Source of the DNA: a virus
DNA length: 29,749 bases
Strand: one strand, 5' to 3'
IMG/VR virus record: IMGVR_UViG_3300010343_000010
Coordinates: 1 to 29,749 of that record
The position numbers and the translations under genes were made by a program. This document shows positions 71-20,644 of the stretch, piece after piece. Position 1 is the first letter of the stretch. Every line of letters starts with the position of its first letter. The notes under the pieces were generated by a model. That model saw nothing but the letters and a program-made list of their open reading frames with translations. It ran no database searches and was not told the origin of the DNA.

Positions 71-2203
71 TCAATTGAATTCGTAGACGATGATTTCGCC
101 GCCGCTTGGGTTTCCGCCGGTTACTGCGGCACCGCTGTTAGCACTTGATCCGCCGCTTCCTCCGGCCCCAAAGCCTCTCCCTGGCGCGCCGTTGTTGGTT
201 GCTCTCTCCTGGACTCCCCCAGTGCCTAATGGAGAATTAGCACCTGCCCCCGAAAAATTTGAATTTAGGGCGGCATTAATGATGCTGTATTGCGGTGGTG
301 CCCCAGGAATATCATCAAGGCTTGTTCCTCCCGAGATGGTGCAGTCTGCGGGCAATGATCCTGTTATTGTACCAAAACCGATTAATGTGTCTGCTATAGC
401 TGTATTTCCTTGCCCAGCCGCCCCACCACTGCATGAAACAAGAGCTCCAAATGATACTGTGCTTCCAGCTGTGCCAGCGTTATCTCCAGCGCTTCCACCA
501 GCACCAGCAGTTCCGATAGTAATGGTTTCCGGTGAAAATCCGCTGGTATAATAAACTTTGGCGTAAGATCCTGATCCACCAGAACCCGCAGAGCAATTTT
601 GAGATGATGATGTAGAAGCGCACCCACCACCGCCACCGCCTTGTCCGACAACTTCAACGATAATCTGTTGCGTTCCTGCGTCTTCCGTGTAGGTTCCGCT
701 CGCGGTAAAAACCTGGATTCCAACGAGACCTGGCGAAGAGGAGGCAAGGGTGTTGCATCCAAAACCGGTCCCGCTGGTCCAGCTTAGTGCGTCATTCGAT
801 AGGCTGCATGAGGGGAGGGACAAACCGCTTGGCGTCGTCGCGGTGACGGAACCCAAGACTTGGTTGGCGGAAAGCGCTGGTAAATGAGCGTAGGTAATTC
901 CTGTAATTCCAGAGCCGCTCCCAGTTATGGTTGTGAACGATCCAGCGAAGGTTGTTGCCTGCCCTATGCTTCCGTTTAGCGCGCCGCTGGTTGAATTCAG
1001 AATTGAGAATGTGGCATTTCCGCCGACGAGGGAATAAATTCCGGTCGTGGCGTCGTTCTCAATAAGCATAGGCGCGGAATTGTTCGTCCCCTGCGGGATA
1101 ATGACCGTTGGTCCGCCGTTGCAAGCGTCTGAACCGTTACTCTGGCAAAGGGTGGTCGCGAACGAACCGGTTGTATTATTGTAAACCGCAACCTGGTCAG
1201 AGTTTCCGATACCGGTTCCATTCGGGAGAATGACCGTTAAATTGCTGGTCAGAATTCCAGTGTTTATGAAAACCGCGGGGAAGGGGGTTGGAAGGCTTAC
1301 TGTTTGATTGGTGCCGCTGACATATCCCGTGCCGCCATATAGGATCATATCTCCCGTGACGGCGGTTCCAGAGACGGTTGTTACCTCGACATAGTCGTCA
1401 TTATTTCCTTGGAACGAGGTATTGTTCGGAAATGTGACAACATCCCCCACCTTGTATCCTGAACCGCCATTGAAAATGGTGCCAAGAGAGGTGATAACGC
1501 CGCCAGATGCCGTAAATGTTTGGGTTAATCCGACGCCGTTGGTGGCAAACGAAAGGGTTCCACCGGCTGTGCTCCCCAGCGCAATATATATCGTGGCTTT
1601 CCGAAAATTGGTGACGTTTTGAGTGAACCCGGTTGTCGCAAGCTGGGTTGTGTTCGTGGTGGATGGCGCGGTTGGGGCGAGAGGAACGAGGGTAAACGTC
1701 GGTGAGGCAGCAAGGACAACCGCCCCGCTTCCCGTGGTGCCGTTGGAGAGGTTGGAGGCGGCGATTTGAGATCCTGCGACCTCGAAAATTCCGCTGATAT
1801 TCACGTCCCCGGTTGGTGGAACGCTCTCGTTGACGCCTAGCGCCGTGAGGCCACCAATCCCCGAGCTTGTCCATGTGCTGGAGTCGGGACCAGTGACGGT
1901 TCCGGTGAATGTCGGATTGTTGAACGAGCCCCCGGAGGTTGTCGCCAGAGTTCCAGAGGTTGGCAGGGTGACGTTTGTTGGCCCTGTGGTTGTAAAAGTT
2001 AGGGAGTTTGCCCCGGAGGTTGCGAAATTTCCCCCGAGCGTGATGGTGTATCCGAACAGATTGACCTGTGCGGTTGCGGTCGTTCCATTTTGGGTAATCT
2101 CGTCAAGATTATTTTGCGCCTGGAGTGGACCAATAATCGGCTGCCCCATAGCAGGGAGCGTCATCGACAGAAGAATGATCGTGGTCCAGATTTTTTTCAT
2201 CAT
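71..2203 (-). CDS. Glycine-rich tail fibre/adhesin with apparent signal peptide
   Basis: A 710-residue protein. The ATG at 2203 overlaps the previous stop (ATGA), so it is preferred over the in-frame GTG at 2215. Residues 1 to about 20 look like a Sec signal peptide: two Met and two Lys, a hydrophobic run (IWTTIILLSM), then PAMGQ as a possible cleavage region. The middle is Thr/Ser/Gly-rich beta-type sequence like phage fibre shafts and includes two GSGY-type modules. The C-terminal ~200 residues begin near FTASGTYTEDAG, contain a run of glycines and end GGEIIVYEFN, the pattern of glycine-rich domains at phage tail-fibre tips. Eight cysteines are visible, several as closely spaced pairs. Its place after two other fibre genes supports a receptor-binding role. 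A signal peptide is unexpected for a virion protein. Alternatively it could be a secreted or outer-membrane adhesin. Confidence 0.75.
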   Translation of the reverse strand: MMKKIWTTIILLSMTLPAMGQPIIGPLQAQNNLDEITQNGTTATAQVNLFGYTITLGGNFATSGANSLTFTTTGPTNVTLPTSGTLATTSGGSFNNPTFTGTVTGPDSSTWTSSGIGGLTALGVNESVPPTGDVNISGIFEVAGSQIAASNLSNGTTGSGAVVLAASPTFTLVPLAPTAPSTTNTTQLATTGFTQNVTNFRKATIYIALGSTAGGTLSFATNGVGLTQTFTASGGVITSLGTIFNGGSGYKVGDVVTFPNNTSFQGNNDDYVEVTTVSGTAVTGDMILYGGTGYVSGTNQTVSLPTPFPAVFINTGILTSNLTVILPNGTGIGNSDQVAVYNNTTGSFATTLCQSNGSDACNGGPTVIIPQGTNNSAPMLIENDATTGIYSLVGGNATFSILNSTSGALNGSIGQATTFAGSFTTITGSGSGITGITYAHLPALSANQVLGSVTATTPSGLSLPSCSLSNDALSWTSGTGFGCNTLASSSPGLVGIQVFTASGTYTEDAGTQQIIVEVVGQGGGGGGCASTSSSQNCSAGSGGSGSYAKVYYTSGFSPETITIGTAGAGGSAGDNAGTAGSTVSFGALVSCSGGAAGQGNTAIADTLIGFGTITGSLPADCTISGGTSLDDIPGAPPQYSIINAALNSNFSGAGANSPLGTGGVQERATNNGAPGRGFGAGGSGGSSANSGAAVTGGNPSGGEIIVYEFN

Positions 2204-10367: not shown

Positions 10368-10814
10368 TCACTGAATCCCGCCGTTTAATTTCTTGAAAAA
10401 ATACTGGCTTGTGCGGTCATATCCGCGCTTTCGCGCAATGGGGGTCAAATCCTCCCCATTGATGTTCCCCCAGCCGCATTCAACGGCGCCGATCCTTCGA
10501 GACCATGCTTCCATAGCGTCCAAAGCCGAAAGAACCTCGCGTAAATTTGGGTTTTTCGTGAACAACCAGATTCCGCCCACCGTAATTTCAGGTTCAATAA
10601 ACGTCCGGATCGCTGTGGCGCAGAAAAACACATCATTCCCGCGAATCATGAGGTAATTTTGGTTTTGTTCTACCATTTGGCAAAACGCCAATGCGTTTTC
10701 ATAAGTAAGACGAGGATGAAGATGGCGGTATTTTTCCAAAGCCAATTCAATCGCCTCCGGAAAATCAACGGAGGTCATCGGCCTTAGCGGGGTTGAAAAA
10801 TTTGCGCCGTCCAT
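10368..10814 (-). CDS. GNAT-fold-like phage protein
   Basis: A 148-residue protein. The pattern of an N-terminal helix (FPEAIELALEKYRH), the strand NDVFFCATAIRTFIEPEITVGGIWLFTKNPNLREVL broken by turns, then a helix-strand with RRIGAVECGWGN and a C-terminal RKRGYDRTSQYFFKKL is what phage GNAT-like proteins look like. The canonical acetyl-CoA loop (Q/R-x-x-G-x-G/A) is not evident, so catalysis is doubtful. Small GNAT-like proteins just before the ejection proteins are known in podoviruses (T7 gp13 occupies a comparable position), so a virion-assembly role is as likely as acetyl transfer. Confidence 0.6.
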   Translation of the reverse strand: MDGANFSTPLRPMTSVDFPEAIELALEKYRHLHPRLTYENALAFCQMVEQNQNYLMIRGNDVFFCATAIRTFIEPEITVGGIWLFTKNPNLREVLSALDAMEAWSRRIGAVECGWGNINGEDLTPIARKRGYDRTSQYFFKKLNGGIQ

Positions 10815-10818
10815 GATT

Positions 10819-11412
10819 TTATTCGTTCGGAAGGTAGCCTGTTAAAACGCTTCGGGCATTTAGGTGGTCCTGAACATGCTCAAAAATGAATTCCTCCAAG
10901 TCTTCCTGGTCCGAATTGGCGAAATCTATACTCTCCAAATCGCTGCTTTGCTGACCGGTTGCGTTGAGCATATCCTGGTGCGTCTCCTGGTGGAGAACAT
11001 TCCATTGCGCCATGTCAAAAACAGGGATTGGATCTAGCTGGTATTGAGTGAGATCGATGTAATTTACGGTCGCGACAACTTCCAATCCCGTGCCGCCGCC
11101 ACCCGTCACCGTCACTGTCGGCGCGCGGATATATCCAAGCCCTGGATTCGTCAGGGTAAGCTGTAGTTTCATTGAAACGATGGTAAAGATCGCGGTTGCC
11201 TGAATGCCGTATGACAAATTTGGCGGTCCAATGGTGACTGTTGGCGCGCTGGTATATCCAGATCCAGCGGCGGTGACTGTCAATCCTGCAATGACGCTAC
11301 TCTTCTTGGAAATTGCGTTCAAAATGTCCTGATGATCGATGCGATTCGCCAACCCCCAAACCGCTATGTCTTCAGGAGTTTTCGGAGGATTCCAGAGTTG
11401 ACTTGTGCTCAT
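10819..11412 (-). CDS. Virion protein with two GSGY beta modules
   Basis: A 197-residue protein whose ATG overlaps the previous stop (ATGA). The central ~90 residues hold two copies of the GSGY module: AAGSGYTSAPTVTIG and NPGLGYIRAPTVTVTGG. These are flanked by two similar helical segments, DHQDILNAISKK and LHQETHQDMLNATGQQ, and an acidic C-terminal helix (SDQEDLEEFIFEHVQDHLN). The repeated HQ-D-LNA helices on each side suggest an internal duplication wrapped around the beta insert. Location between the tail hub and the GNAT-like gene suggests a tail or neck component; no family is recognised. Confidence 0.6.
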   Translation of the reverse strand: MSTSQLWNPPKTPEDIAVWGLANRIDHQDILNAISKKSSVIAGLTVTAAGSGYTSAPTVTIGPPNLSYGIQATAIFTIVSMKLQLTLTNPGLGYIRAPTVTVTGGGGTGLEVVATVNYIDLTQYQLDPIPVFDMAQWNVLHQETHQDMLNATGQQSSDLESIDFANSDQEDLEEFIFEHVQDHLNARSVLTGYLPNE

Positions 11413-11708
11413 TTCTTCAGTTTTCGAGAAAACGGAAGCATGTACGGGACAGGCTGGAATTCATCAGGGCATTGATGTTGAGGTATGGGATTTCCGTTCC
11501 ATTTTTGTCCATCGGCAATATTCCCGTTGTACTGGCATCCATCACCGCCAAATCCGCCGTCTGCGTTCGCGTATATCGTTCCCGCAGGGGCATGAGAAAC
11601 GTGGCCCATTGGATTCATAACGCGCGTTGCGTTGGAGGGCACGTCTTCTTGCGTTACCTGGACCATTCCAGGGAAATTCATGGTCCCTTTGCGATTGAAT
11701 TTTACCAT
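11409..11708 (-). CDS. Hypothetical small virion-operon protein
   Basis: A 99-residue protein from an ATG with a good AGGAGA ribosome binding site. It is rich in Gly, Asn, Pro and Met, with a middle section NADGGFGGDGCQYNGNIADG and a basic C-terminus (FSRKLKK). There are no membrane segments or recognised motifs. The two cysteines (CQYNG and QHQCPDE) do not form a metal-binding pattern. It lies directly after the tail-hub gene and overlaps the next start, so it is probably a minor virion or assembly factor; that is context only. Confidence 0.55.
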   Translation of the reverse strand: MVKFNRKGTMNFPGMVQVTQEDVPSNATRVMNPMGHVSHAPAGTIYANADGGFGGDGCQYNGNIADGQKWNGNPIPQHQCPDEFQPVPYMLPFSRKLKK

Positions 11709-11717
11709 GTCTATCTC

Positions 11718-14015
11718 CTATGACTGATCCGGAACCATGAGGCCGACGCTTCCAACTTGGAAGCCTGTCGGCGTGTAGGTAATCGCCAAATATTGTATCG
11801 CGTCATCCGGATCTGTCGTTGTGACCGTCAATCCGAGGAAAATTCCAGCCGCATCATTCAGGCCCGTGACCATCATTGGATAGCCCAAAATGTACTGACT
11901 TGCGAGAGAAAATGTCGCCGGAGACGGTAGGACCGGAAATGTGCCTCCATCTGTATCCAGAGAGATCGTATAATTGACTGGATCTCCAAAGACATTGAAA
12001 TTGTTCGATTGGATCATGACCGAATATACCTGTTTGGCTATGATCGGTTGATTCCCCCCAAATAATTTCGTGGTGAAGGTTTTGACGAGAGTAGAACTTG
12101 GCGTGGTGAACAGGGGGTAGAGAGATGTCCCGTCAGAACCCCAAGCCATAAGATTTGATGTGACCTCTTGCGTACAAATGAATGTCAGATTTACCGTTTG
12201 AGACGCCAGGAACCAATTTTGCTCGTCCCAAAGCAGCATTTTATTTGCCGGTTCAAGGCTGATAGGGTCGAGTATGGTCAGGTTCAGGACGTAATATTTT
12301 CCCCCGTACAGATTCACAACCGCTGAGGTTGGCGTCAATGCTCCATCTGCCGGAGGGAATAGCGCGAAAGAAAATAGGGGGTCGAGATCCTGACTGATTT
12401 TTGTGACCGATCCTCCATAGAGGCCGTAAACCCCTAGCTGATTGGCGAAAAGGATCGTTCGACCAAAATCTTGGCAGCTATCTCGCCATGAGACCCCGAT
12501 TTGCGGGTCTGTGTTCTGATAATTAAATGTTGTGCTGGACGGGTTGCCGCTGGTTGAGACGCCAGAGATGATTGAAACCGAAGAATCCCCAAATGGGTAT
12601 AGATACCCATTAGATTGCTGCATGGCCACATATTGGACGCGCAAAAACCGGTCTGTTGAGGTGAATAGAACGCCGCCATCGCTGGTTGAAAAATCAGAAA
12701 ATGATCCGGGAGCTGAAACCTGGAATTTGTTTGAATTGTTGTTTGCGTCTGGGTTTCCTGGTGGCGTGTATGGAGAGGCAATCCAGATTCGAGACTGAAA
12801 TTCCTCCATTGTCGTCCCGCTCACACCATAGGGCATTAACTGAACGGTTGCCGAGGCGGATTTGTTGATTCCAGACTCAATAATGACCGCTGGACGGTTG
12901 ACGTATCCGGCCCCGTCAGTGACCATCGTGACAGAGGTAATTGCGCCTCCAGAGACAACTGCGGTCGCGGTCGCTCCAGATCCTTGGCTCCCAACAATCG
13001 TCAAGGTTGGGGCTACGGTATATCCGCTTCCCCCGCTGATGACCGCGATTGATACGACACCACTGGCAGTTATAGCTGCATAAGCCGACGCTCCTGACCC
13101 ACCACCGCCCGAGAATGAAACGGTTGGGGCGCCGACATACCCGCTTCCGCCCGCGGTGACGTTTATCGCCGTGACCACCCCGCCGCTGACTATCGCGGTG
13201 GCCATAGCTCCAGATCCATTGGCGCCGGTAATCATCACGGACGGCGCGCTTCCGTATCCTATGCCTCCGTTGGTGACGACAATTGAAATTACCGCGCTTG
13301 CGGTCAGGTTTGCTTGAAGGAACGCTTCGCTATCCGTGTTTCCGCCCGAGAAAACCAGAACAGGGGAATCTATTGGCTGATAACCGGTCCCTGGATTTGT
13401 GACCGCGACAGTGACGACTGAGCCATTTTGGATTGTGGCAACAAAGGTTGCTCCTGTCCCTTCACCAGATTCAATCGTTACCGTTGGAACCGATGAATAT
13501 CCGGTTCCGCCATCGGTTATGACGATTTGAGGGGAAATCGTTCCTGCCGTGTAGAGGATCTCCCCATCCCAAACCCAATAAGCATCCTGATTTTGGTTGT
13601 TGCAGATTATGAGGTATTGAGATCCCCATTGGATGCATCCGGGGATATTTCCGCCACTGACATAGAATGTATTTGCGGAGGACGAGATCGTTGTTACTGC
13701 GCCGTTTGAAACCTGGACTTGATAAGACGTACCGTCGCTAAGAAATACAACTGTATATTGTGTTTTGGCGATGTTATAGAAAAATGCACTGATAATAGTT
13801 TTTCCACCGGTCGCCGTATAGAGCGCTGGTCCATGGTCCCATAGAGTTCGCAAAAATCCATCGCCAATTCGGACCCAATTTTCAATGTTGTAGAATTCCT
13901 GGTCTCGGATTGCCGGTCGACTGGACGCAAGATTTAATCCCGCAAATGGGAATGACGAATATACGTTTAGACCTGGCGGGATTCCAAGGTCATCACCTCC
14001 ACCTTTCTTGGCCAT
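11718..14015 (-). CDS. Tail hub/DNA-stabilisation-like protein with inserted GSGY repeats
   Basis: A 765-residue protein whose ATG overlaps the previous stop (TGATG). The N-terminal ~160 residues (FPFAGLNLASSRPAIRDQEF, YNIENWVRIGDGFLRT, SGGNIPGCIQWGSQYLIICN) and residues ~400-765 (MEEFQSRIWIAS, SWRDSCQDFGRTILFANQLG, VYGLYGGSVTKIS) read as the two parts of a beta-propeller like the P22 gp10 family, which plugs the portal and holds the tail. Between them, residues ~164-384 hold six tandem ~35-residue modules of the type TNGGxGYxxxPTVxI, apparently inserted in the propeller. The family is named from recalled pattern, not alignment. Position after the adaptor gene agrees with a neck or tail-hub role. 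Confidence 0.65.
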   Translation of the reverse strand: MAKKGGGDDLGIPPGLNVYSSFPFAGLNLASSRPAIRDQEFYNIENWVRIGDGFLRTLWDHGPALYTATGGKTIISAFFYNIAKTQYTVVFLSDGTSYQVQVSNGAVTTISSSANTFYVSGGNIPGCIQWGSQYLIICNNQNQDAYWVWDGEILYTAGTISPQIVITDGGTGYSSVPTVTIESGEGTGATFVATIQNGSVVTVAVTNPGTGYQPIDSPVLVFSGGNTDSEAFLQANLTASAVISIVVTNGGIGYGSAPSVMITGANGSGAMATAIVSGGVVTAINVTAGGSGYVGAPTVSFSGGGGSGASAYAAITASGVVSIAVISGGSGYTVAPTLTIVGSQGSGATATAVVSGGAITSVTMVTDGAGYVNRPAVIIESGINKSASATVQLMPYGVSGTTMEEFQSRIWIASPYTPPGNPDANNNSNKFQVSAPGSFSDFSTSDGGVLFTSTDRFLRVQYVAMQQSNGYLYPFGDSSVSIISGVSTSGNPSSTTFNYQNTDPQIGVSWRDSCQDFGRTILFANQLGVYGLYGGSVTKISQDLDPLFSFALFPPADGALTPTSAVVNLYGGKYYVLNLTILDPISLEPANKMLLWDEQNWFLASQTVNLTFICTQEVTSNLMAWGSDGTSLYPLFTTPSSTLVKTFTTKLFGGNQPIIAKQVYSVMIQSNNFNVFGDPVNYTISLDTDGGTFPVLPSPATFSLASQYILGYPMMVTGLNDAAGIFLGLTVTTTDPDDAIQYLAITYTPTGFQVGSVGLMVPDQS

Positions 14016-14770
14016 CAGTAACCCCAGCCATTATACCAATCGACCACGCGCCCATGATCCGTAGCGCCACGAGCGCGCCCAAGTGACGCTTGGAACATTT
14101 GAAGGTAAATTCCCGCCTGTTGGTGTTGCTGCATACCCAATTTCGACAGGTACGCAGCATAAAATTTCACGGCATTTTGGAACGGATGCGGAATTGCATC
14201 ATAATCACTATCCGTCTCCAACGGAGATGGTGTGCAGCAACATTTCCATTCCATTTCGAGCGCTTGGCTTGGAACGGGCCACAGCCAAAGATTTGCATTC
14301 GCTCCGTCGCCATCGGTTGCCCACACGAGAGGATAACTGGAAACGATGTAATTATATGAGCGCGCATAAGCCTGAAAATCATCCCACGGCATGTAATTCA
14401 GCGCTGGACGCATTGATCCCCAAGAGATAGCGATAGAGGTAATATCCGTGACATATTGGATTCCAGCATTCGCATTTTGAATTTGCGCGAGTGCCATGGA
14501 GAATGGATATTTTTCTTGATTGACAATGGTGTTGAAAGGTGGCGTTGGCGCGCTTCCGGGAGTGAACCCGCCAGGAACCATCGTTCCAGGTTGCGCGGCG
14601 TTCCCGTTTGGAGACATACCGGTTGCGATGAGGTTGATGCAGCCCGTCCCATACGCAACTTGACGCCGCGCCTCGTTTATCCAACTTGTCAGCTGCAAAA
14701 CCGGAGTCAGAAGCCCCAAATTGTCGTGCAGCAAACTTTGGGTGTCAGTAATATACTGAGACAGCTGCAC
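14015..14770 (-). CDS. Head-tail adaptor-like protein
   Basis: A 251-residue protein beginning at GTG (MQLSQYITDTQSLLHDN). An N-terminal helix pair ending in LTSWINEARRQVAYGTG resembles the start of phage adaptor proteins, which typically have 'W-N-A-R/Q' in this position. The C-terminal part contains helices (FQNAVKFYAAYLSKLGMQQHQQAGIYLQMFQ, seen in pieces) ending in a Trp/Tyr-rich tail. It lies between the decoration-like protein and the tail hub, where head-completion proteins are expected. No enzyme motif is seen. The adaptor call rests on this N-terminal pattern and on gene order. Confidence 0.6.
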   Translation of the reverse strand: MQLSQYITDTQSLLHDNLGLLTPVLQLTSWINEARRQVAYGTGCINLIATGMSPNGNAAQPGTMVPGGFTPGSAPTPPFNTIVNQEKYPFSMALAQIQNANAGIQYVTDITSIAISWGSMRPALNYMPWDDFQAYARSYNYIVSSYPLVWATDGDGANANLWLWPVPSQALEMEWKCCCTPSPLETDSDYDAIPHPFQNAVKFYAAYLSKLGMQQHQQAGIYLQMFQASLGRARGATDHGRVVDWYNGWGY

Positions 14771-14787
14771 GACAATTTATCCATTCA

Positions 14788-15867
14788 TTAGGACGGATAG
14801 ATATAGCACTCATTATCTGGAAGACCGCCGACCGCGACACTCAGAACCGCAGCAGTCGTGATAATGCCGTTGGAGAGGACGTTCAGAGACCCAACGGCTG
14901 GAATTGTTTCGTAAGATCCACCATCAATGACGGTTTGATTGGTGATCGAGAGCGCGCCAGCAGAGCTGGTAGTAGTTGCAACAATTGCTGGCCGCATGGT
15001 CACAATATCGACCTGAGAGCTGGGGTTTAGGTATGCGCTGGCCGTACCAAGAGCAACCGGCGTTGGGGTTGCGCTCAATGTTACAAACCCCGCTGCGGCG
15101 GTGTATCCGGCGCCCGCAGTCGAGATGCCAAAAGACGTGATGGCAAAATTCATAATCGCCGTCGCTGCGGCACTCGTTCCTCCGCCACCGGAAAAGGTGA
15201 GGGTAGGGACTGAAGTGGTCGGATTTCCGTGGTTGCTCACCAGAACCGCCGTAACCGTTCCGGCTCCAGTCAGGGTGGCAACAGCGGATGCGTTGGCTCC
15301 CGTGCTGTCGCGTGGATCATTGAAGAAGCTGACGGTAGGTGGGAAAGTGTAACCAGCTCCCTGGTTGGTCACGGTCACACTCGTCACCACGCCGCCAGAG
15401 ATCGTGCAATATCCAGTTGCAGGAACACCGGGAGCTGGGGGCGCACTGAAAAAGACGTTGGGCGGCTGTGTATAGTTGGTTCCGCCATAGGAAACTGTGA
15501 CTGTGGTATTCACCGCGCCACCGACGATAGCGAAAAGGGTGGCACCAGTGGTTGTGGTGACTGTGGGAGGGGAGGTGTAACCAGATCCGGCATTGGTGAG
15601 ATAGGCACCAACAACGCATCCGGAGGTGTTGGCAAAACGCATATTTACGCCGTCAGCGGAAAAGAATGTGTGGTTCTTGACGCCTGAGATCGGTTGCCAG
15701 GTCGTGGTAATCGGATCGTATTCCTGGAGCTGTGAGTAGCGCCCAAGATTGACCCAATAGCCATTTGCCGGAGGCATCCAAACACCACCCGCTTGCAGCG
15801 CAAACTGGTTACTGGTCAGGTCTGCGAGGGTGTTTGTTACCCCAGGACCACCGAAACGAATAGGCAT
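14788..15867 (-). CDS. Decoration-like virion protein built from GSGY modules
   Basis: A 359-residue protein with a strong AGGAG site before the ATG. After a ~90-residue N-terminal region (NQFALQAGGVWMPPANGYWV, YDPITTTWQPISGV), the rest is a string of about six beta modules: NAGSGYTSPPTVTTT, YGGTNYTQPPNVFFS, NQGAGYTFPPTVSFF, a degenerate NHGNPTTSVPTLTFS, AGAGYTAAAGFVTLS and DGGSYETIPAVGS. The same module appears in three other virion proteins in this window. Being immediately downstream of the major capsid gene suggests a head decoration or head-fibre protein. Family not known to me. Confidence 0.6.
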   Translation of the reverse strand: MPIRFGGPGVTNTLADLTSNQFALQAGGVWMPPANGYWVNLGRYSQLQEYDPITTTWQPISGVKNHTFFSADGVNMRFANTSGCVVGAYLTNAGSGYTSPPTVTTTTGATLFAIVGGAVNTTVTVSYGGTNYTQPPNVFFSAPPAPGVPATGYCTISGGVVTSVTVTNQGAGYTFPPTVSFFNDPRDSTGANASAVATLTGAGTVTAVLVSNHGNPTTSVPTLTFSGGGGTSAAATAIMNFAITSFGISTAGAGYTAAAGFVTLSATPTPVALGTASAYLNPSSQVDIVTMRPAIVATTTSSAGALSITNQTVIDGGSYETIPAVGSLNVLSNGIITTAAVLSVAVGGLPDNECYIYPS

Positions 15868-18566: not shown

Positions 18567-18812
18567 TTATGCAGCATAATCGCTGCATTTATAGGCTTTT
18601 TGTCGAGCGATATTTACCAACATGGATTGAAGCAATCGGGTTCTAGTCTCTAAAAGAACCTCAATTCTTTCCTCCTCCCATGGAGGGATTTTTGTTCCTG
18701 CCATCCATCGAAAAATTGTGACGCGATGGACTTTTAGATTGCGCGCCAAAGCGCTTTGCCATTGCCTTCCGTAAAGCAATCTTCCTCGGGTTTCGAGTTC
18801 GTCAGGGGTCAT
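18567..18812 (-). CDS. Small helix-turn-helix protein
   Basis: An 81-residue protein whose ATG overlaps the portal stop (ATGA). Residues ~10-45 (GRLLYGRQWQSALARNLKVH, RVTIFRWMAGTKIPPW) form a clear helix-turn-helix like small phage and alphaproteobacterial XRE-type regulators, in which 'LYG.RWQ..LAR.L.V...T..RW..G...P' is recurrent. Helical residues 46-75 follow. It is odd to find a DNA-binding protein embedded in the head operon, just upstream of a predicted promoter. It may regulate late transcription or be a small terminase-like DNA-binding factor; neither is shown. Confidence 0.7.
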   Translation of the reverse strand: MTPDELETRGRLLYGRQWQSALARNLKVHRVTIFRWMAGTKIPPWEEERIEVLLETRTRLLQSMLVNIARQKAYKCSDYAA

Positions 18813-20644
18813 TTCTTCCCCGGTTTTCCTGGGGGTGGACCGCCTTGTTGCGCCGCCGCCGCTTGCGCCGCCGCCGCCGCGACTTCCGCTGTACGGACCT
18901 CCGCAATGACAACCTCTGCATTTGGCGGATTGATCTGTTCAACGAATTGCGTGTTGCTCATGGCATTCGCCTTCTTCAACAGAATGGCTTTCTGTTCCGT
19001 TTCGTCGCCAAATGTCGGCGATGAGCTATGAGCATCCACCGTCACCCGAACATTGTTGGGGACATCGGACATATAAAATTGGAATGCCTTCATCCCTGGA
19101 GAGGGAGGCTGGACAACCGGGTCAATCAGCTTACCCATCAATTCCGGAGAGGTGTCTGGAGTTGGCAGAACCCACGCCGTCAGAAGATTCGTTGATTTTG
19201 CTTTTAGGAGGTCCAGAAGCAAACCGGCGCAAGTTTGGATTGCCCTCTCAACCCGGATTGATTTTGTTTTGAACCGCGGCGTTGCGTTGCTGGTGAGTTG
19301 CCCTGTTTGCCCATGAGATCGAACGGATGGAGATGCCAAACCTTGGAGCGTTGGCGTCATTCCGGTCATCACGTCAAACATACGCTCGGTTTGTTCCAGG
19401 CTTTGCCAGAGATCCGGGGGAAGTGTCGGCGCCAGGACTGTGGGAGGTTTGGCGGTTGGGTCTGGATCGTGCATCCACCCGCCTGGTTTGGTGAGTTTGG
19501 ATTTTTTCTCCTGGTCCATCATGGAGCCACCCAAGAACGCTATCGGGGGCTGTTCCTGGAGCCGGAGCAATCCGTTGATGCCGTTGATCCGCTTGTTCAG
19601 TTGCCTCTGCATGAGCGCGATGTTGGCAACCTCTGAGCGCCCCCAGAAATAGTTCTGGAGCCGATTAGGGCAGAATTCCACGAATGGATGCTTGAACGAG
19701 AGGGGATTTCCCTCAAACGGTTGGCGGATTGGCGTCTTATTGTATGGGTCAAGAGCGTCGGCGAAAATATTCATGCGCTGTTCTTTCCCGAACAGCATAA
19801 TGTTGCCGATAACTTGGAATGTGGACCATTCGCGGCGTCCCTCGTCATCCGCCCTCGCGTCGTCTCTCACCCATAGCTCGTCCACCCTCACCAGTTCTGT
19901 AATCACTTTTGGATCAAAGCTTGGATAGGGACCGGCGAGCCACTGAACCATTCCGTTTGTCGTTTGTGGGTTTGCGCTACCGACGCCTCCCACCCCCTGG
20001 TAAGGCTGGAACCCGCCAACGATAACCTGCTTCAGCATCGCCGCTTGGTCCGGTCCATCTGCGGATCTGGTTTGAGCGGAAAATTGGATCGCGCGCTTGT
20101 AGATTTTTTTCGCGTCTGGATGGTCTTTGATCAACATCCTGAATTGATCGCGGGTCAAATAGGTGGAGTGAACGAACGCCTCTTGCTGGTCGAGAGAGTT
20201 AATATCCGCCCTCATCACCCCCATAAATTCGGGCATGATCATGTGAGGCTCTAGACCGTTTACGCTCCAAAGCATTTTGATGAACGTTATGCCCTTAACC
20301 AGCGCCCAGCGTGTTGCTTCCTCGTAAAGCGTATCCAGCTCGGTTTGCCGCGACTGGTCAAGAAGTTCATGAGAAATAGACTCCGCTTGCGCGCGCTGGA
20401 GAGCAGATCCTCCTCCGGGGTAATTTACCGAATAGCGAAGATCCACCGACGAACAGAGATAAGATGTGACGTCCTCAATGCTATCGAACGTTTTGTTGAA
20501 TATCGCGGCATCGCCATTTTCATCGCCGGAGAGATAGAGATTTTTGAAGAAAGCGCCGCGTTGCAATCGGTCCTGGTTGTCTGGCGTGCATTGGCGGATG
20601 ATTTCTGACGCCCAATCCTCAATATCTCTATCCGGGATGATCAT
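18809..20644 (-). CDS. Portal protein
   Basis: A 611-residue protein whose ATG overlaps the previous stop. It starts with a helical segment (DWASEIIRQCTPDNQDRLQR), then a mixed domain with DEATRWALVKG-type helices and ITFIKMLWSVNGLEPHMIMP. A central region includes FVEFCPNRLQNYFWGRSEV and ALMQRQLNKRINGINGLL, the long-helix part typical of portals where 'G.S.v..i...Q..iN'. The last ~40 residues are Ala/Gln- then Gly/Pro-rich (AEVAAAAAQAAAAQQGG), perhaps a coiled barrel or flexible tail. Gene order after the terminase strongly supports it. It forms the dodecameric DNA gate at the capsid vertex. Confidence 0.85.
   Translation of the reverse strand: MIIPDRDIEDWASEIIRQCTPDNQDRLQRGAFFKNLYLSGDENGDAAIFNKTFDSIEDVTSYLCSSVDLRYSVNYPGGGSALQRAQAESISHELLDQSRQTELDTLYEEATRWALVKGITFIKMLWSVNGLEPHMIMPEFMGVMRADINSLDQQEAFVHSTYLTRDQFRMLIKDHPDAKKIYKRAIQFSAQTRSADGPDQAAMLKQVIVGGFQPYQGVGGVGSANPQTTNGMVQWLAGPYPSFDPKVITELVRVDELWVRDDARADDEGRREWSTFQVIGNIMLFGKEQRMNIFADALDPYNKTPIRQPFEGNPLSFKHPFVEFCPNRLQNYFWGRSEVANIALMQRQLNKRINGINGLLRLQEQPPIAFLGGSMMDQEKKSKLTKPGGWMHDPDPTAKPPTVLAPTLPPDLWQSLEQTERMFDVMTGMTPTLQGLASPSVRSHGQTGQLTSNATPRFKTKSIRVERAIQTCAGLLLDLLKAKSTNLLTAWVLPTPDTSPELMGKLIDPVVQPPSPGMKAFQFYMSDVPNNVRVTVDAHSSSPTFGDETEQKAILLKKANAMSNTQFVEQINPPNAEVVIAEVRTAEVAAAAAQAAAAQQGGPPPGKPGKK

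Follow-up and report, generated by a model that had tools for sequence, protein, structure and literature searches.

The closest described counterparts of the repeat domain reported here are found on phage tail hubs and on other virion proteins. The tail hub of phage SU10 is a hexamer, and its beta-propeller bears four Ig-like nozzle domains as an insertion that separates blade 2 from blade 3 (PMC9509320). The chain of the T7 gp12 nozzle likewise leaves its propeller via the loop of blade 3, which leads to the nozzle tip, a domain made of one beta-barrel (PMC6702177). Hubs of P22 gp10 size, with 471 residues in the PDB chains, are too small to hold such an insert. Accessory virion domains that are mobile are also already known. 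Ig-like domains are described as accessory beta domains in unrelated virion proteins (Fraser et al. 2006, as summarized in PMC10684548), and the BACON repeats of crAss-like phages are tail-associated tandem beta domains with varying copy number and positional orthology (PMC6949934).

The window analyzed here is a virus record of 29,749 bases with a gene order of the short-tailed-phage type and its structural genes on the minus strand. Several of its virion proteins contain a short glycine-rich repeat with a GSGY core. We consider it probable that this repeat is an undescribed paired accessory domain that is inserted into loops, projects from the particle, closes in even numbers and serves as the nozzle in the tail hub. 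As in SU10, a tail-hub propeller carries tandem beta domains between its second and third blades, but the repeat sequence is a different one and the hubs carry from 0 to 12 units, always an even number. Unlike phage Ig-like domains, the GSGY domain consists of two equal units that move as a pair and has no Pfam or NCBIfam match, and whereas BACON arrays of five, six or eight follow no even-number rule and have another sequence, GSGY arrays in hubs do follow one. What is new is therefore the pair as the unit, the even rule and the use of the nozzle site. The features of the window are as follows.

10819..11412, minus strand: 197-residue protein, one pair inserted in a small (~112-residue) conserved protein; relatives such as L015 and L264 are without the pair
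11062..11166, minus strand: 197-residue protein, unit 2 (34.8 bits)
11176..11292, minus strand: 197-residue protein, unit 1 (29.8 bits)
11718..14015, minus strand: tail hub/nozzle-type beta-propeller protein, 765 residues (AlphaFold model pLDDT 83, Foldseek)
12834..13538, minus strand: GSGY array in the hub, residues 160-394, between blades 2 and 3 (profile, strand order, empty-site relatives)
12834..12941, minus strand: hub unit 6 (29.3 bits)
12951..13058, minus strand: hub unit 5 (36.7 bits)
13068..13175, minus strand: hub unit 4 (36.8 bits)
13185..13292, minus strand: hub unit 3 (37.7 bits)
13302..13418, minus strand: hub unit 2 (29.0 bits)
13428..13529, minus strand: hub unit 1 (42.9 bits)
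14015..14770, minus strand: adaptor-like protein upstream of the hub, no unit in the window
14788..15867, minus strand: 359-residue protein downstream of the major capsid gene, five clear units and a weak sixth
14827..14946, minus strand: 359-residue protein, possible diverged sixth unit, by eye (TNQTVIDGGSYETIP...); profile not significant
15040..15141, minus strand: 359-residue protein, unit 5 (11.3 bits)
15151..15255, minus strand: 359-residue protein, unit 4 (29.6 bits)
15268..15387, minus strand: 359-residue protein, unit 3 (36.3 bits)
15397..15507, minus strand: 359-residue protein, unit 2 (21.0 bits)
15520..15615, minus strand: 359-residue protein, unit 1 (20.4 bits)
1289..1480, minus strand: fibre stretches that resemble the GSGY core only, unconfirmed as units (whole-protein E = 4)

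Units were identified with a 36-position profile that was iterated and built from 309 units, and a second profile, from which the window and its close relatives had been left out, served as a retest. The two profiles gave E values of 9e-59 and 3e-53 for the six units of the hub, and the same value with both for the 359-residue protein (2e-29) and for the two units of the 197-residue protein (1e-19). When each protein was shuffled 250 times, the best score obtained was no higher than 5.9 bits, compared with 184 bits observed for the hub, 90 for the 359-residue protein and 59 for the 197-residue protein. The preliminary description had counted about 16 copies in four virion proteins. Its counts for the hub and the 197-residue protein hold, and five of the six units it assigned to the decoration-like 359-residue protein are clear, the sixth being weak. 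The two it placed in the glycine-rich fibre (71-2215) are not borne out: the whole protein gave no significant match to the profile, and only short GGSGY/GGTGY stretches (residues 246-262 and 294-307) match, without the remainder of the unit. The window thus contains 13-14 GSGY units spread over three proteins.

Although the sequences themselves are publicly available, none of the sources searched (Pfam, NCBIfam, the PDB and open-licence literature) describes the domain. Searches of the three libraries with the hub, the 359-residue protein, the tail sheath and tail tube described below and a repeat consensus returned no family and no solved relative. In particular, no Ig-like model of Pfam or NCBIfam matched the repeat, and the Pfam BACON model matched none of the hub, the 359-residue protein, the 197-residue protein, the sheath, the tube or the consensus. 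The best PDB profile match, BurrH, reached an E value of 0.01 summed over many weak pieces and was taken as chance, and matches to antibody, ClpP and S-layer chains were rejected as chance as well. A model of the 359-residue protein matched nothing in the PDB at E <= 0.001 by Foldseek, weak cupin, CRP and PM2-spike matches being set aside; among predicted viral proteins it does have matches, some of them proteins of uncultured phages that bear the name 'P22, Gp10'. No open-licence paper describing the motif was found when its letters were looked for in the literature. The repeat is contained in PHROG families 701, 460, 708 and 438 (wedge, neck and structural proteins), which are cyanophage-type and defined on whole proteins.

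The AlphaFold model of the hub has a mean pLDDT of 83, with most of the core above 90 and the array at about 54-93, a moderate range. By Foldseek it matches the hubs of SU10, the cyanophage A4, T7, P22 and Pa223 (E values from 3e-17 to 1e-10) and also the VP1 and GP4 tail hubs, which gives the protein the propeller fold of P22 gp10, T7 gp12 and the SU10 hub. The genes for the major capsid protein, the 359-residue protein, the adaptor and the hub follow one another in the window, an arrangement that fits the capsid-adaptor-hub order of tail-hub phages; in MW202753 and MW202825 the capsid gene likewise precedes an adaptor-like gene and the hub. The portal protein (18809-20644) is similar to that of SU10 (Pfam SU10_portal at E 1e-6, slightly short of the cut-off), in agreement with an SU10-like hub. 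Also among the structural genes is a 148-residue protein (10368-10814) whose sequence reads like a GNAT acetyltransferase.

Seven blades can be traced in the strand order of the model (residues 74-111, 126-149, 402-452, 462-503, 515-539, 563-604 and 612-634), and all of them lie outside the array, which falls between blades 2 and 3. Because a sequence-profile comparison of the hub with SU10 gp17, the gene taken as the SU10 nozzle gene, gave no alignment, this placement rests on strand order, and both it and the blade order were read only from the secondary structure of the model. On that reading, the hub has its extra domain where SU10 has one, between blades 2 and 3, and where T7 has one, on the blade-3 loop. 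Given the correspondence with the SU10 nozzle domains, the array is most likely placed at the nozzle position of the modelled hub. In one hub relative (L268:4269-6047), a different module of about 75 residues is found at this position in place of GSGY units, suggesting that the site accepts several domain types. In three others (L276, L278 and L279), the first GSGY unit has a foreign module of 63 residues (SGSIATTTLTVTAVASG...) nested in it.

In the models of both the hub and the 359-residue protein, each unit is predicted to form three strands, a long A, a short B and a long C, with a tight turn from C to the A strand of the next unit. The working unit would be a pair of these ~39-residue units, with about 78 residues and six strands, inserted in loops of virion proteins and probably projecting outward from the particle. 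Three strands would reverse the direction of the chain and two units would bring it back to the side from which it started, which would account for even numbers in loop inserts and for the fact that a single unit is hardly ever seen. The first A strand and the last C strand may then complete a closed fold. The pairs in the hub probably make up the distal nozzle of the tail, in which case unit number would set its length, while in the other proteins they may serve as surface spacers or stabilizers.

Searches of phage proteins, of the kind the preliminary description had proposed, found the module in unrelated virion proteins, over which it has spread as a mobile domain. P2-type tail sheaths, identified by their sheath Pfam domains, carry it at one and the same loop with no units in Vibrio MAR and phage 186, two in E. 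coli ep3 and HeidiAbel_Bas97 (Bas97), Burkholderia Mica and Xanthomonas FoX1, and four in Klebsiella KA2-1. In the ep3 sheath the pair spans residues 146-228, and Bas97, which has a single pair, is a phage of an E. coli laboratory host. One pair is present in a lambda-type tail tube (Pseudomonas phage PseuP_224) and one in a fibre of cyanophage S-B43. Adaptors mostly have 0 or 2 units, with one pair in L018, L019, L020, L022 and L024. Two or more adaptor-like genes stand in a row in L018, L019, L020, L021 and L024, and in all of these except L021 the pair is borne by the one adjoining the hub. The 197-residue protein belongs to a ~112-residue family that is conserved downstream of the hub in most relatives and is almost always without the pair; one pair, at a single point, is a feature of the clade formed by the window, L005-L008 and L294. 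Outside the pair, the 197-residue protein has stretches that repeat an H-x-x-x-H-Q-D-x-L-N-A-like motif. The array of the 359-residue protein is kept in the relatives aligned. In bacterial and archaeal genomes, the module is found in multicopper oxidases, among other proteins.

The recombining character suggested for the domain was not seen in the lineage of the window. When the 67 units of five genomes were compared, every one was most similar, among the units of other genomes, to a unit of the same gene, and none had a nearer match in a different gene of the genome it came from. There is therefore no present movement between genes in this lineage, and mobility is old or rare within a lineage and clear between lineages.

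A role other than that of spacer or nozzle can be considered. The array could be a module that binds glycans or receptors of the host surface, its copy number tuning avidity. It is likely to be exposed at the tail tip, on the sheath and on the head surface, and for the BACON and Ig-like repeats of phages, binding to cell surfaces has been suggested (PMC6949934). However, the conserved positions of the unit are mostly Gly, Ala, Thr, Val and Pro with one Tyr and form no evident polar pocket, and the occurrence in multicopper oxidases suggests a general spacer. We therefore regard a binding function as unlikely, though it is the best of the alternatives, and favor the paired structural domain.

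The clearest property of this paired domain is its copy number. Relatives of the hub were collected by searching with its C-terminal half, and among the 136 obtained, 13 have no units, 5 have two, 58 four, 44 six, 11 eight, 4 ten and 1 twelve; no odd count was found at the hub insertion site. For the 56 hubs of the second set, found later, the class was taken mostly from insert length, profile counts agreeing for the large majority and several hubs in which the profile missed units being read by eye. L268 was excluded from the counts, and L276, L278 and L279 were entered as four units, since with their additional 63-residue module length alone would mislead. Insert length increases in steps of about 79 residues: the first set had inserts of 25-37, 99-102, 171-194, 258-286, 336-341 and 500 residues, and the gap at ten units was filled in the second set with inserts of 417-419 residues, as the spacing predicts. 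The even rule has been kept through at least 31 changes of unit number on the tree of the 136 hubs, the first 80 having given 15. In the clearest of these transitions (L027 and L046 compared with L028; L074 compared with L062), two adjacent interior units were added and the flanking units stayed orthologous.

Outside the hub, clusters of arrays with similar flanks are even in 63 cases and odd in 15 (21:5 viral, 42:10 cellular), a ratio that the search query, itself a pair, may have tilted toward two-unit arrays. Several cellular arrays called odd (L182, L208, L197 and L245) proved by eye to be register-shifted, with the order B-C-(ABC)n-A and the equivalent of four, six or eight units. They lie near the N-terminus of multicopper-oxidase-like proteins, a call made from a Pfam match in L182 and L197 and from similar flanks in L208 and L245. 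In some other odd-called arrays, edge units that the profile had missed were recognized by eye, and few odd ones remain; those of L164 (five units), L134 (three) and L111 (1+2) look real. The number of units is thus even in hubs and nearly always even across all proteins.

Even numbers could also come from a process at the DNA level, namely repeated duplication of two units, with folding playing no part. The gain of two adjacent units in the transitions from four to six is what such a process would produce. However, no tandem repeat was found at the DNA level in the GSGY array, and no two-step pattern of similarity was found among the units within arrays, so that the sequences give no sign of arrays having evolved through copying of fixed pairs. 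Together these results argue that the rule stems from folding, and unrelated proteins and register-shifted arrays follow it as well. We consider the duplication explanation improbable and retain closure of the paired domain as the probable source of the rule. Going further, it is conceivable, and we put it forward tentatively, that two like units of three strands together form a new beta fold, which closes only in even numbers, and that one to six such pairs form the tail nozzle of many short-tailed phages and give it a tip length that changes in steps.

A very improbable alternative is that the repeats make up blades of the hub propeller itself, or form a second propeller, and are not an inserted domain. 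Four-stranded blades are likewise beta repeats of about 40 residues, and the register-shifted arrays recall the way in which propellers close. However, the GSGY unit has three strands, not four, two units alone occur in the tail tube, the sheath and the 197-residue protein, and the structure prediction proposed in the preliminary description placed all seven blades outside the array. Removal of integral blades should break the propeller, but hubs that naturally have no array (L022, L023, L025, L263-L267, L301, L309, L313, L330 and others) keep the whole of it with all core sequence. The comparison with relatives, proposed likewise, includes the hubs of L025 and L034, which are 71% identical and have 0 and 4 units, respectively. 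With seven blades outside the array and relatives with an empty site, the array is an insert that interrupts the propeller, as had been suspected. Two features escaped the preliminary description: what moves is a pair of units, and the point of insertion in the hub is a position at which nozzle domains are known.

Convergence of low-complexity strands rich in Gly, Ser, Thr and Ala, alike in composition and without a common origin, is a highly improbable account, for although the composition is strongly biased and HMMER applies large bias corrections, shuffled proteins fail to match, the profile made without the window recovers all units, and the order G-x-G-Y, P-T-V, G-A-T-A is conserved in the alignment of sheath, tube, hub and fibre.

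The GSGY module is thus a widespread domain that is absent from the libraries searched, and this misleads annotation. Repeats of the window match wedge, neck and fibre PHROG families, and a partial match of this kind can give a gene the wrong name. One hub relative (L009:9314-11302, in MW202753) is annotated as 'baseplate wedge initiator', a label that probably arises from its GSGY repeats matching cyanophage wedge proteins. Gene naming should benefit if the repeat is masked. In addition, the even-number rule is a sharp and testable statement on the folding of repeat proteins. If the arrays are nozzles, these phages provide a natural series of tails graded by about 79 residues per step, and the relationship between nozzle length and genome delivery could be tested with them.
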